From positions 1-48,823 of the forward strand of contig JAAYVC010000012.1 in the NCBI GenBank assembly GCA_012517375.1: a stretch of 48,823 nucleotides of DNA, read 5' to 3'. Of the stretch, positions 1-4,631 are shown piece after piece. The translations under genes were made by a program, and so were the position numbers. The DNA comes from a bacterium. Its GTDB lineage: Bacteria > Hydrothermota > Tepidihabitantia > B3-TA06. The notes beneath the pieces were generated by a model. That model was not told where the DNA came from. It did not search any database and worked only from the letters and a program-made list of their open reading frames with translations. Numbering within the stretch: the stretch's first letter is position 1; the number at the start of each line of letters is the position of its first letter.

Positions 1-1224
1 CCGACATTTCTACCATAGTCCATTTCAGACAACGCTTGCCGCATCTCAATTATACGCCCATCTAATCCGACATTTCTACCATAGTCCATTTCAGACTACC
101 CGAATTTACATAATGTTTCCGAATTTTCAGACCGACATTTCTACCATAGTCCATTTCAGACAAGCATTCCCATAGGAACGTTCGACGGCGCAAAAGGCCG
201 ACATTTCTACCATAGTCCATTTCAGACCAATGCCTTTCGTCGAGCCTCGCGTGCGCGGATATATCCGACATTTCTACCATAGTCCATTTCAGACTTTCTC
301 CACAATTCATACATCTTTACTTTATCGGGACCGACATTTCTACCATAGTCCATTTCAGACGCGCAGCTCCACGATTATTGCAGAAAGAATCTTAAAACCG
401 ACATTTCTACCATAGTCCATTTCAGACTCACCGATGGCGACCCAGCCAAGAACCCTTCCGAACCGACATTTCTACCATAGTCCATTTCAGACATCCGAAG
501 CTGAAATAAAAAGACTTGAAGAAAAATGCCGACATTTCTACCATAGTCCATTTCAGACTGTTGCCGATGACGAATCTTTTGTCTCGTCCTGGGGGACCGA
601 CATTTCTACCATAGTCCATTTCAGACTCCAGAACGCCTTGACCAAGGTGTTTAACGCAATATTCACCGACATTTCTACCATAGTCCATTTCAGACCGCTC
701 CATTTCGAGTGCCCGAAAGGATGATTGGCACCGACATTTCTACCATAGTCCATTTCAGACGTGAACATATTGGCTTCGTTTTCCTCGTCGGTCAGCCGAC
801 ATTTCTACCATAGTCCATTTCAGACCGCCGGAATAGGTGATCTTTCCGGTCGAGAGGAGCTCCGACATTTCTACCATAGTCCATTTCAGACGCCCATGAG
901 AGCCTGAGCGCACAGCCATTCGATTGTGCCGACATTTCTACCATAGTCCATTTCAGACATCAAAGACCTCCCAGGTTATTACCCTTCTATCAAGGACCGA
1001 CATTTCTACCATAGTCCATTTCAGACAACCGTCCCGATGATTCGCGCGAGCGCGTATGGGTCCGACATTTCTACCATAGTCCATTTCAGACGTGGTTCGA
1101 TATCCCGCGTCTCATCAAAGACCTTAACCGACATTTCTACCATAGTCCATTTCAGACACTCAAGAGCAAATAATCAATCCGCATCGGATCGCTGCCGACA
1201 TTTCTACCATAGTCCATTTCAGAC
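1..1224. CRISPR. CRISPR array, 19 repeats and 18 spacers, open at left edge
   Basis: Nineteen identical 30-bp repeats (first half CCGACATTTCTACCA, second half TAGTCCATTTCAGAC) start at 1, 67, 132, 198, 265, 331, 398, 463, 529, 597, 666, 731, 796, 862, 929, 997, 1062, 1128 and 1195. The 18 spacers are all different and 35-39 bp long. I saw no degenerate end repeat, so orientation and leader side cannot be fixed. The repeat has no strong internal palindrome. The window begins exactly on a repeat, so the array probably continues to the left. No cas gene lies in the window, so the type cannot be assigned. The nearest protein gene is a TnpB nuclease 191 bp to the right. Confidence 0.98.
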
Positions 1225-1260
1225 GCAAATCCAAGTTCCGAATCCGTTCGAGTTGCAGAG

Positions 1261-1415
1261 TACCAAATTCAAATTTTGCAGTCGATGTCCGGTAGCGCAA
1301 AATCCCCGGGGGTTCGACTGCACCACTTTCATGCTATGGCAGAATTCTTGTTTCAACCAAGCTGGTTGCTTTCCGGAATTACTCCCAAAAAACAGAGCCG
1401 CCTTGTCCACAAGCG
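1261..1415 (-). ncRNA. possible TnpB guide RNA (omega/reRNA-like) region
   Basis: TnpB nucleases normally use an RNA made from the 3' end of their gene and the DNA just beyond it. Here the 3' flank is non-coding and structured. A perfect 9-bp inverted repeat (TGCAGTCGA at 1277-1285, TCGACTGCA at 1314-1322) encloses a GC-rich loop. A smaller hairpin near 1358-1372 has CAACCA/TGGTTG arms. Bases 1225-1260, between the last CRISPR repeat and this region, are 36 bp, which is a spacer length. The element end could therefore be near 1260, but no terminal motif was recognised. The function is inferred from the family only. Confidence 0.3.
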
Positions 1416-2570
1416 TTACTTTCCCTGTGCCTCAGGGTAGTTCAACAGGTTTATGGCCGCATTCAGGTCGCGGTCAATCTCAAGGCCGCAGCTGGAGCAG
1501 CGAAAAACCCTTTCAGATAACTTTAACTCATCCTTCTTTGAACCGCATTTGCTGCACGTCCTCGACGACGCGAACCAGCGGTCGGCAACAACGAGTTCCG
1601 AGCCGTATATCTTGGTTTTATAATCCAACTGCCTGCGGAACTCGAACATGCCTATATCGCCTATCGCCCGCGCAACCCTGCGGTTTGCAAGCATACCCTT
1701 CACGTTCAAATCCTCAATCATTATCGCTTGGTTTTCGCTGCACAATTGAGTCGTCGTCTTGTGAAGGAAATCCTGCCGGATATTGCGAATATCTCGATGC
1801 AATCTGGCAAGCTGGTTTCTTGCCCGCTCTCTGTTCGCCGAACCTTTCTTCTTTTTCGTAAGCTGGCGCGACTTTCGCTTGAGTCTGTAGAGCATTGTCT
1901 TCAAAGGCTTCGGCGAATCGTAAACAATGCCCTGCTCCGACGTGGTTACGGCGCGCAGCACTCCAAGGTCTATCCCGACTTTTTTATCCGCCGTTCTAGG
2001 CTTCGCGTAATCCTTGACCTCCACCTGCACGGCAATAAACCACCTGTCAGCCTCGCGGCTTATAGCCCCGCCCTGAATCTTACCCTCGAATCTAAGAACC
2101 TCCCTCATCTTGATTGTCGTCGGTCCCGTTATCTTGCCCCTGCGAAGAAGCAGGCGTTTGCCATTGAATTCCATGCATCTGTTGTGAACGTAAAACGAAT
2201 CGTGAATCCCCTTCTTTTTGAAGTTAGGAAAGCCGGGCTTCTGGCCTTGTTTGAGCCGCCTGAAAGTATTTGCAAACGCAGCACCAAGGTTTCTGAGAGC
2301 ACCTGTTGGAATGTGTGAGTCTACTTCTCTTAACCAAAACCATCCTGGATTAAACATGACGGCACGTCGAAGAATTTTTCCTAAAGCCTCTTTACTAGGT
2401 TTTGATGTTGTCTTTTTTTGATCTTCTGATAACTCCTTCCAACCCTCGTACCACTTTTTCCATCTATCAAGCCCCCAGTTGTAGACGAACCTTGCGGTTC
2501 CGCAAGCCCTGCGGAAGTACGCCTCCTGCTCGGCTGTAGGAGCCAAAGCTATCTTATGACTCAACAGCAT
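1416..2570 (-). CDS. tnpB: TnpB-family RNA-guided nuclease (IS200/IS605 OrfB-like)
   Basis: This 384-residue protein has the family's normal length and looks intact. The N-terminal part (about 1-110) is the helix-turn-helix/wedge region of OrfB proteins. The RuvC-like core shows Asp201 in GIDLGV, Glu286 in MIEDLNVKGM, and a third acidic site at 366-368 in EIDRDLNAAINLL. A four-cysteine zinc finger (C339, C342, C358, C361) lies before the last motif. No tnpA transposase is present, so this is a solo (IS1341-like) copy. Its 3' end points at the CRISPR array 191 bp away, which makes a CRISPR-associated type V-U-like role worth testing. A normal host-type promoter lies 6 bases upstream of the ATG, and there is no Shine-Dalgarno site, so the mRNA is probably leaderless. 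Confidence 0.92.
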   Translation of the reverse strand: MLLSHKIALAPTAEQEAYFRRACGTARFVYNWGLDRWKKWYEGWKELSEDQKKTTSKPSKEALGKILRRAVMFNPGWFWLREVDSHIPTGALRNLGAAFANTFRRLKQGQKPGFPNFKKKGIHDSFYVHNRCMEFNGKRLLLRRGKITGPTTIKMREVLRFEGKIQGGAISREADRWFIAVQVEVKDYAKPRTADKKVGIDLGVLRAVTTSEQGIVYDSPKPLKTMLYRLKRKSRQLTKKKKGSANRERARNQLARLHRDIRNIRQDFLHKTTTQLCSENQAIMIEDLNVKGMLANRRVARAIGDIGMFEFRRQLDYKTKIYGSELVVADRWFASSRTCSKCGSKKDELKLSERVFRCSSCGLEIDRDLNAAINLLNYPEAQGK

Positions 2571-2576
2571 ATTTGA

Positions 2577-2604
2577 AATATACGCTCGACTTTTACCTTG
2601 TCAA
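2577..2604 (-). promoter_or_regulatory. promoter of tnpB
   Basis: Read on the minus strand: TTGACA (2604-2599), 16 bases, TATATT (2582-2577). The ATG at 2570 lies only 6 bases after the -10 box, so transcription should start at or next to the start codon. Confidence 0.7.
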
Positions 2605-2675
2605 GCCCCTTCTTATCAACGAGTTAAGGCGTAAAAAAAGCGACAGGTTAGGGGTTTCACCCATCCTCCCTGCTA

Positions 2676-2794
2676 TGTCATTCTGAGGAGCGAAGCGACG
2701 TGAGAATCTCAATGGCTAGCGGAGTGAGCAATATCAAAGTGTCGAGTTAGTGAGACCCTCACGGTCCAACGCCTTCGGCATTAGACCTCAGGGT
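2676..2794. repeat. intergenic repeat with palindromic parts
   Basis: The stretch 2676-2711 (TGTCATTCTGAGGAGCGAAG onwards) resembles an intergenic repeat I remember from many unrelated uncultured-bacterial genomes. It is followed at 2755-2794 by an interrupted hairpin with arms ACCCT/AGGGT, GGTC/GACC and GCC/GGC around a TTC loop. No convincing coding frame was seen. Confidence 0.5.
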
Positions 2795-2849
2795 GACTGC
2801 CAATTGATTTATCATACCCCCTCCCTTCAGCGCTCTTCCAGAACGCAGC

Positions 2850-2905
2850 CCTCCCCGCCAGGGGAGGAAGCTTCCTTGCTTACACCCTCCCCCCGGTGGG
2901 GGAGG
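2850..2905. repeat. two CCTCCC/GGGAGG hairpins
   Basis: Two short hairpins: CCTCCCC-GCCA-GGGGAGG at about 2850-2867 and CCTCCCCC-CGGT-GGGGGAGG at about 2886-2905. The same kind of element recurs at 20513-20671 and 42065-42085. It is a non-coding repeat class distinct from the 36-bp GGGGT palindromes. Confidence 0.6.
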
Positions 2906-2995
2906 ATAAAGGTGGGGGGGGCAGAGTAAGGGTGTATTTTGAGCAGCCTCCAAATGTCGTTTTAATATGGTTTATCGAGTTAATAGTTAATATAC

Positions 2996-3035
2996 TTGAC
3001 AAACCTCAAAAGTTAACTATACTAACCAGTCAGTC
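2996..3035 (+). promoter_or_regulatory. promoter and TetR-type half operator before the epimerase gene
   Basis: TTGACA (2996-3001), 16 bases, TATACT (3018-3023), then ACCAGTCAGTC at 3025-3035. The same core ACCGGTCAGTC sits at exactly the same distance after the TATACT box of the RND operon promoter (4674-4684). Both promoters are therefore likely controlled by the TetR protein at 5317-5922. Confidence 0.7.
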
Positions 3036-3089
3036 GTCTAATGTGACGATGACGTCTTTGGAATTTATAAATATAAAGGTGCAAAAAAG

Positions 3090-4631
3090 ATGACGCAAAG
3101 GAAGAGGAAAGTGCTCCTCACAGGAGCTTCGGGTTCAATGGGATTCGAGGCGTTCAAGGAGCTGTGGAAACGCAGGGATCGCTGCGATATTGTTCTGCTT
3201 TTGCTCCCGAATAAGCTCGAAAAGAGGCTTTTCAGACCGTATGAGAAGGATGTCGGGATCAGGAGCATCTCCGGGAATGGCGTCGTGCAGTCGGCTGAGG
3301 GGGGCTTGAAGATAGTCTGGGGCGATCTGACCGAGTATGAGGACGTGCGGGAAGCGGTGCGCGGTGTTGACCATGTGCTTCATCCTGCGGCGCTCATCTC
3401 GCCTGCAGCCGATCACAACCCGGCGCTTGCCCGAAGGGTCAATTACGGAGGGGCCGAGAATCTCATCAAGGCCATAAAGGCGGAGCCTCAAGGCGCTGAG
3501 CGCATAACGCTCGTGAGCATAGGTTCTGTAGCGTTCTACGGAGACCGCCTACCCCCTATCGCTCTCATACGCGCTGGCGATCCCTTGATGCCTTCGGTCT
3601 TCGATTTTTACGCCATATCAAAGATTGCGGCTGAGCGCGAGGTCGTCGAATCGGGCATCAGGCGCTGGGTCTCGATGAGGCAGACGTATATAGCGATTCC
3701 GGACGTGCGCTCACTAATGGACCCGATAATGTTCCATCAGCCTCTTGAACAGCGCATAGAGATGTGTACGGCAAGGGACGCAGGCTACGGACTCGTGCGT
3801 ACGCTCGACCAGCCGCTTGACTCCGATTTCTGGAGAAGGGTATACAACCAGACCGGCGGCCCGTCTGCAAGATTCGTGTACATGGACTATCTTGAACGCA
3901 TGATGAAGATTCTCGGGCTCGGCGATTACCGCAAGTTGATGGACCGCAACTGGTTCACATTGAGAAATTTCCACTGCGCATGGTATGCGGACTCTCATAT
4001 CCTGAACGGCTACCTCGGACATCAGCGCGACTCCTACGAGGACCATCTCAGGCAGGTTGAGGATGCGCTGCCCGGATACATTAAACTGGGCAAGATAGTG
4101 CCTAAATCCCTGATAAAGAAATTAGTGATGAGGCCAATGGCCTCCCGCAAGGACGGTCCGCTTTACTGGATAACCCATCCGGACCAGATGCCGAACAGGA
4201 TTAAGGCGTTTTATTCTTCGGCGGATGAATGGAGCAGGATGGGAGACTGGTCATCAGTCGATGCAGACTCGTGCAGCAATTTAAGGATTCTCGATCACGG
4301 ATACGACGAAAGCAAATCCGTGGATGATTTAAGCATTGAAGAGCTGAGGAAGGCAGCTGTCTTCAGGGGCGGAGAGTGCCTTTCATCTGAGTATTGCGGC
4401 GACAGAAGCGAAAAACTTTCGTGGCGGTGCGCATTCGGGCATGAGTTCGAGGCGAGCGTGGCGCTCGTCCTTCTTGCCGGGCACTGGTGTCCGGAATGCT
4501 CTCCGCCACCCTGGGACTACGCGAGGATTGCCCGGAAGAACCCGTTCCTCGCTCAGGCTTACTACAACACGCATTCCCCGGATGAATCACACTGCTATCT
4601 TGAAGAAGAATGTCTTAAGGAAGTCTTTTAG
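3090..4631 (+). CDS. NAD-dependent epimerase/dehydratase (extended SDR) with C-terminal zinc-ribbon-like domain
   Basis: The protein has 513 residues. The N-terminal Rossmann fold has the extended-SDR glycine motif TGASGSMG (11-18) and the catalytic YxxxK (Y174, K178) preceded by serines near 143-146. The family oxidises, epimerises or dehydrates nucleotide sugars and related alcohols; the substrate cannot be read here. After about residue 330 the protein leaves the SDR fold. It ends in a putative treble-clef/zinc-ribbon site, C447, H451, C467, C470 (WRCAFGHEF and HWCPEC), which is unusual for an SDR enzyme. The gene stands alone with its own promoter, which carries the same operator as the downstream efflux operon, so co-regulation is likely. 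The ATG at 3090 is a plausible start but has only a weak ribosome site. Confidence 0.85.
   Translation: MTQRKRKVLLTGASGSMGFEAFKELWKRRDRCDIVLLLLPNKLEKRLFRPYEKDVGIRSISGNGVVQSAEGGLKIVWGDLTEYEDVREAVRGVDHVLHPAALISPAADHNPALARRVNYGGAENLIKAIKAEPQGAERITLVSIGSVAFYGDRLPPIALIRAGDPLMPSVFDFYAISKIAAEREVVESGIRRWVSMRQTYIAIPDVRSLMDPIMFHQPLEQRIEMCTARDAGYGLVRTLDQPLDSDFWRRVYNQTGGPSARFVYMDYLERMMKILGLGDYRKLMDRNWFTLRNFHCAWYADSHILNGYLGHQRDSYEDHLRQVEDALPGYIKLGKIVPKSLIKKLVMRPMASRKDGPLYWITHPDQMPNRIKAFYSSADEWSRMGDWSSVDADSCSNLRILDHGYDESKSVDDLSIEELRKAAVFRGGECLSSEYCGDRSEKLSWRCAFGHEFEASVALVLLAGHWCPECSPPPWDYARIARKNPFLAQAYYNTHSPDESHCYLEEECLKEVF

Follow-up and report, generated by a model that had tools for sequence, protein, structure and literature searches.

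An IS607-family TnpB beside a CRISPR array: a probable minimal type V-U-like system with a guide RNA split between scaffold and repeat

Whether a TnpB nuclease gene that lies next to a CRISPR array is a chance neighbour of that array or its effector is the question raised by the left end of a bacterial contig (G000:C12), which we refer to in its whole length of 48,823 bp as the window; the contig belongs to a 2.54-Mb metagenome-assembled genome of 97% completeness that is not closed. The window opens with 19 copies of a 30-nt repeat (CCGACATTTCTACCATAGTCCATTTCAGAC) and 18 mutually unrelated spacers of 35–39 nt, and after a gap of 191 nt (1225–1415) tnpB follows, its 3′ end pointing to the array. 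The copies do not vary at all, and this perfect repetition indicates that the array is maintained. The repeat was not found elsewhere in the assembly, nor in 146 further genomes of the phylum or in IMG/VR. A first-pass annotation had described an array of 19 identical repeats ending at 1224, a full-length TnpB with the RuvC acidic residues and a zinc finger, and 191 bp between the array and the facing 3′ end of the gene, and each of these statements was confirmed. Based on the analyses below, we consider it likely that an IS607-family TnpB has here become the effector of a minimal CRISPR system, V-U-like (type V) and TranC-like, and that its right-end RNA (reRNA) has been split between a scaffold next to the gene and the CRISPR repeat.

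Judged by its sequence, the protein is a TnpB. Three Pfam domains score above their cut-offs (HTH_OrfB_IS605, OrfB_IS605 and Cas12f1-like_TNB), the guided_TnpB model NF040570 matches with 283.5 bits (cut-off 100), and D201, E286 and D368 align with the RuvC residues D191, E278 and D361 of ISDra2 TnpB, with the CxxC...CxxC finger complete. The closest relatives are IS607-type TnpBs of 39–48% identity, several of which are encoded directly 3′ of an IS607 tnpA. A set of genome contigs searched for close relatives returned one distant match only, and TnpB is scarce in the phylum, with the TNB domain exceeding its cut-off in 5 of 147 genomes.

The relatives define what an ordinary reRNA of this family looks like. 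A conserved structured RNA lies 3′ of their tnpB genes, and 20 of its 30 predicted pairs are changed on both sides in the alignment; the Rfam family RAGATH-18 matches it weakly, which is consistent with the reRNAs described for IS607 TnpBs (PMC11061315). A covariance model (R1), built from 13 plasmid and phage relatives with the window left out, has a single match in the window, at 1323–1416 on the minus strand and starting from the tnpB stop (43.5 bits, E 5.8e-9), and also detects the reRNA at 77 of 80 TnpB relatives of viral contigs. Each of the 13 ordinary reRNAs has a terminal stem, formed between the 5 nt directly after the core GAAGCAGGAA and a strand whose end lies 7 nt short of the guide; it comprises 5 bp in 12 cases and 4 bp in one. 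In 11 of the 13, nucleotides 2–5 of an upstream 5-nt hairpin loop pair, in addition, with nucleotides 2–5 of the tail, a pseudoknot that appears to correspond to PK2 of the ISFba1 reRNA (PMC11061315). Where AACGG is replaced by GAGCGG, the loop is altered accordingly, from AGTTC to AGCTC in L068.

In the window, both of these contacts are lost in cis. The sole candidate right end is GAACGG at 1244–1249, within the segment between the anti-repeat and the array, where it may stand by chance or as a relic; with it, the terminal stem comprises 0 bp (no cis run anywhere exceeds 3 bp) and loop and tail form no pseudoknot. The repeat read on the minus strand, GUCUGAAAUGGA-CUAUGGUAGAA-AUGUCGG, restores both missing contacts in trans. 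The anti-repeat UUCUGCCAUAG begins where the ordinary stem begins after the core and leaves exactly the ordinary 7-nt tail, and nucleotides 2–5 of this tail (UGUC) pair with nucleotides 2–5 of the loop AGGCA, that is, with the same nucleotides as in the ordinary pseudoknot. Among 20,000 shuffled repeats, an equally good run turned up in 0.1% when any position in the segment was allowed, and in 0.005% at the place predicted by the reRNA (±1 nt). None of 71 other reRNA segments reaches the repeat-pairing run of the window, and 1 of 240 tiles from the rest of the window equals the anti-repeat score; for the remade pseudoknot, the probability of chance is 3%. The 3′ end of the R1 match itself, at 1323 (AAGTGG), was rejected as the end of the RNA, having no family end motif.

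These pairings also bear on the main rival explanation, namely that gene and array adjoin by chance: an IS607 element with tnpB alone would have been inserted next to an unrelated array serving an ordinary system elsewhere, with a reRNA that ends at GAACGG and a 19-nt guide, AUUCGGAACUUGGAUUUGC, that reaches to the first repeat. GAACGG does fit the right-end motif of the family, which is present in 44 of 66 reRNA tails against 8 expected, and two near-identical copies on the L068 contig stop resembling each other exactly at GAGCGG and diverge beyond it, marking this as the right end of the element. Seven genomes of the same family have no tnpB, and fortuitous juxtapositions of tnpB and arrays are documented (PMC6452270). 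However, an end at 1244 with a guide abutting the array gives neither stem nor pseudoknot, whereas the repeat gives both in the ordinary geometry. Simple insertion of a solo tnpB, which the first-pass annotation had named as the plain alternative, is therefore disfavoured, and we regard chance adjacency as unlikely.

The orientation of the pairing further decides how the array would have to be read. The first-pass annotation had envisaged a tnpB transcript that continues into the array and carries antisense spacer sequence as the TnpB guide. Although tnpB is indeed directed at the array, both RNA contacts need the repeat in the orientation of tnpB, the best pairing run in the opposite orientation being 6 nt; moreover, the one guide that TnpB uses follows its scaffold immediately, and 109 nt separate the anti-repeat from the nearest repeat. 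We therefore give this mechanism next to no credence, and the requirement for the minus-strand repeat implies that the array would be read in sense with the reRNA acting as a trans-activating CRISPR RNA (tracrRNA). The broader part of that proposal, a V-U-like locus with guides supplied by the array, is supported by the scaffold rewired to the repeat. From the same pairings we propose that the leader end of the array lies at 1224 and its trailer end off the contig, the left edge of which cuts the array, so that the visible end there is an assembly break and no natural end.

To see whether the signal recurs, roughly 190 TnpB loci (overlaps included) from viral contigs, plasmids, phages and the phylum were examined for adjoining arrays. 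CRISPR-like arrays beside the element were found on two contigs, L129 and L130, whose TnpBs belong to clades different from that of the window. L129 (IMGVR_UViG_3300010276_000129; whole contig L153), 1480–3122, encodes a TnpB on a phage-like contig, with an array of six repeats (GTTTACATTCAACTATAGTTGGTACTAAAG) directly after the RNA. Its cis stem amounts to 1 bp, while its repeat has a 16-bp anti-repeat at the equivalent position, leaves a 7-nt tail and makes a perfect 4-bp pairing with the loop. The last repeat, distal to tnpB, is degenerate, and cas1 was not found on this contig. Taken together, the sequence of L129 suggests a second split reRNA, with the contacts replaced as in the window. 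A maximum-likelihood tree of 72 proteins puts the TnpBs of the window and of L129 into separate groups, and no other end branches are as long as theirs (1.37 and 1.40, respectively; median 0.33). Such branches would be expected after leaving transposon life, and long branches are also harder to place. On balance, we lean towards at least two independent and recent conversions of IS607/RAGATH-18 TnpBs into CRISPR effectors, represented by the window and L129, in which the same two contacts were moved into the repeat.

The second contig, L130 (IMGVR_UViG_3300038492_000324; contig L154), 1173–2589, carries a complete reRNA, followed by a 3-repeat I-E-like array (61-bp period) and then by an intact tnpB without a reRNA of its own downstream; no anti-repeat was found. 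It is a likely example of chance neighbours, and its intact cis reRNA and missing anti-repeat imply that adjacency to an array does not by itself yield the signal. Two other candidates were rejected as CRISPR arrays, namely the repeat run of L096/L099, which is a 93-bp tandem, and that of L173.

Several points weigh against a split-reRNA system in the window. A test of whole-duplex energy was not significant (p 0.39), and the case thus rests on contiguous pairing, position and register as fixed by the family structure; the place of pairing was set by the family model, and the positional test was conceived afterwards. The cis-stem geometry held less well when 35 further reRNAs were checked mechanically, partly owing to several mis-called ends, and the native right end of L129 can also form a 4-nt loop pairing with one G-U. 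The right-end-like GAACGG persists at 1244, leaving room for ordinary reRNA use. The searched sets hold no relative above approximately 50% identity in which conservation of the link between tnpB and the array could be seen. The spacers matched none of 50,697 phage records, and three usable spacer scans of IMG/VR gave no protospacer. Neither cas1 nor cas2, as a source of new spacers, was found in the assembly.

Another explanation accepts the split of the RNA but assigns the array primarily to a type I or III system, whose genes would lie past the edge of the contig or have been left unbinned, with TnpB sharing or hijacking its CRISPR RNAs (crRNAs). Repeats of 30 nt and spacers of 35–39 nt suit class 1 arrays, an adaptation machine is needed for 18 spacers, and the array leaves the contig of an assembly that is nearly complete but not closed. 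Against this, the assembly contains no Cas1, Cas2, Cas6, RAMP proteins or true Cas3, the contig ending inside the array; a cas3-like match was rejected as Cas3, the protein being, as we take it from its sequence, RecG. We hold crRNA sharing to be quite improbable.

What can be read directly from the sequence is an intact nuclease and reRNA core, the loss of both cis contacts and the presence of both trans contacts in ordinary geometry; transcription, processing, binding, cutting, a motif and a role in defence are what we infer for a split-reRNA system. In such a system, tnpB might be transcribed from the promoter-like site at 2604–2577, and the 5′ part of the reRNA (~1334–1440, minus strand), either as the 3′ part of the tnpB message or as a piece processed from it, would serve as the tracrRNA. 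The 3′ part of the reRNA, comprising the second strand of the terminal stem and the 7-nt tail before the guide, would now be the 3′ part of each repeat. An array transcript running in the direction of tnpB would give rise to crRNAs of the form GUCUGAAAUGGA-CUAUGGUAGAA-AUGUCGG-spacer, in which two contacts with the tracrRNA would form, one between CUAUGGUAGAA and the anti-repeat and one between the tail nucleotides UGUC and the loop nucleotides GGCA. The tracrRNA–crRNA pair would be bound by TnpB, which would then cut spacer-matching double-stranded DNA beside a short motif; the target-adjacent motifs (TAMs) of relatives are AG-rich (PMC11061315). The coordinates of the features involved are collected in Table 1.

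Table 1. Features at the left end of the window and their proposed parts in the locus
Feature	Coordinates	Strand	Description
CRISPR array	1–1224	−	19 identical repeats, sense GTCTGAAATGGACTATGGTAGAAATGTCGG; 18 spacers
Segment from anti-repeat to first repeat	1225–1333	−	Imperfect hairpin (TGCAGTCGA...TCGACTGCA) and presumed leader
Anti-repeat UUCUGCCAUAG	1334–1344	−	11 bp (1 G-U) with repeat nt 13–23; where the reRNA terminal stem ordinarily has its 5′ strand
Conserved reRNA core, RAGATH-18-like; proposed tracrRNA body	1345–1416	−	R1 match and alignment
5′ hairpin CCCTG-AGGCA-CAGGG in the 3′ end of tnpB	1423–1437	−	Loop nt 2–5 (GGCA); proposed pseudoknot with repeat-tail UGUC
tnpB, proposed effector	1416–2570	−	384 aa, intact; IS607-type RNA-guided nuclease with RuvC triad and zinc finger
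Promoter-like site for tnpB	2577–2604	−	TTGACA, 16 nt, TATATT; 11 of 12 matches, one expected by chance in the region

On the other side of the gene, no tnpA was found in 2571–3090 upstream of tnpB, and a search for left-end and right-end inverted repeats at the element gave nothing above shuffled sequences and no recognisable left end. IMG/VR contigs (L096, L104, L105 and L107) carry a TnpB family, in several copies per viral contig, with right ends of GAAGGGG and inverted-repeat left ends (GACTTAA...GTTAAC), which is useful for the mapping of element ends. The intergenic stretches upstream of tnpB at 2686–2810 and 2820–2930 resemble dispersed repeats (TGTCATTCTGAGGAGCGAAGCG..., with a CCTCCCC...GGGGAGG inverted repeat) and may indicate either the opposite side of the element or a site of rearrangement. 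Further along, 3090–4631 encodes a protein of epimerase fold whose C-terminal part weakly matches a treble clef (DUF4379, below cut-off). Two genomes of the same family have orthologues of it (71–73%) in different surroundings; a search for the empty site in relatives found none, this neighbouring gene alone being syntenic.

How does the locus compare with known systems? That transposon–CRISPR intermediates with a split guide RNA exist is shown by the LaTranC structures in the PDB and, reportedly, by a 2025 paper on TranC in Cell. Cas12f (V-F) loci consist of an effector, a tracrRNA and an array, as does the proposed arrangement in the window; the Cas12f2 model, however, gives the window TnpB 58.4 bits, below its cut-off of 450. 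LaTranC (PDB 9jfo/9jfp/9jfq) likewise combines a TnpB-like effector beside an array with a guide RNA whose function is divided between a tracrRNA and a crRNA, but it scores 78 bits against the window protein, compared with 170–176 for ordinary TnpBs, which points to a different lineage. Subtype V-U loci (PMC6452270), including V-U2 of cyanophage CL131 (PMC6293099), share with the window a TnpB-sized effector by an array and no visible adaptation genes, yet the window protein is not C2c8 (56.5 bits, cut-off 350), and the two other array neighbours among the loci examined lie in other clades. Cas12n of type V-N (V-U4, C2c9; PMC11641405) is a TnpB-like nuclease with the tracrRNA within its own mRNA; the window TnpB may or may not belong to it, as the PADLOC model Cas12u4 scores the window TnpB at 279 bits and ordinary IS607 TnpBs at 265–295, and the PADLOC Cas12 labels (Cas12u4/Cas12f) were set aside because the window protein scored no higher than ordinary TnpBs. 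ISFba1 TnpB (IS607, with a RAGATH-18-derived reRNA; PMC11061315, PDB 8iaz; 387 versus 384 aa) resembles the window protein in family and size, and likewise has the reRNA core 3′ of the gene, the loop-to-tail pseudoknot and the terminal stem; in the window, the 3′ half of the reRNA lies in the CRISPR repeat instead of in cis, and tnpA and a recognisable left end were not found. The locus would work like the TranC and V-U systems, but protein scores place it in none of the named families, and it comes from the IS607/RAGATH-18 branch.

The origin of Cas12 from TnpB is a central open question, and a split of the ωRNA into tracrRNA and crRNA was proposed as a route from TnpB to Cas12 on the basis of the ISDra2 structure (PMC10097598). 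The locus described here is a natural candidate for an early stage of this transition, the protein still being a plain 384-aa TnpB and the scaffold departing from those of its relatives mainly in the source of its last two contacts. If our reading is true, the known CRISPR nucleases would gain a very small one that arose separately, and the two conversions would reveal, down to single base pairs, the passage from a transposon guide RNA to a tracrRNA and a crRNA.
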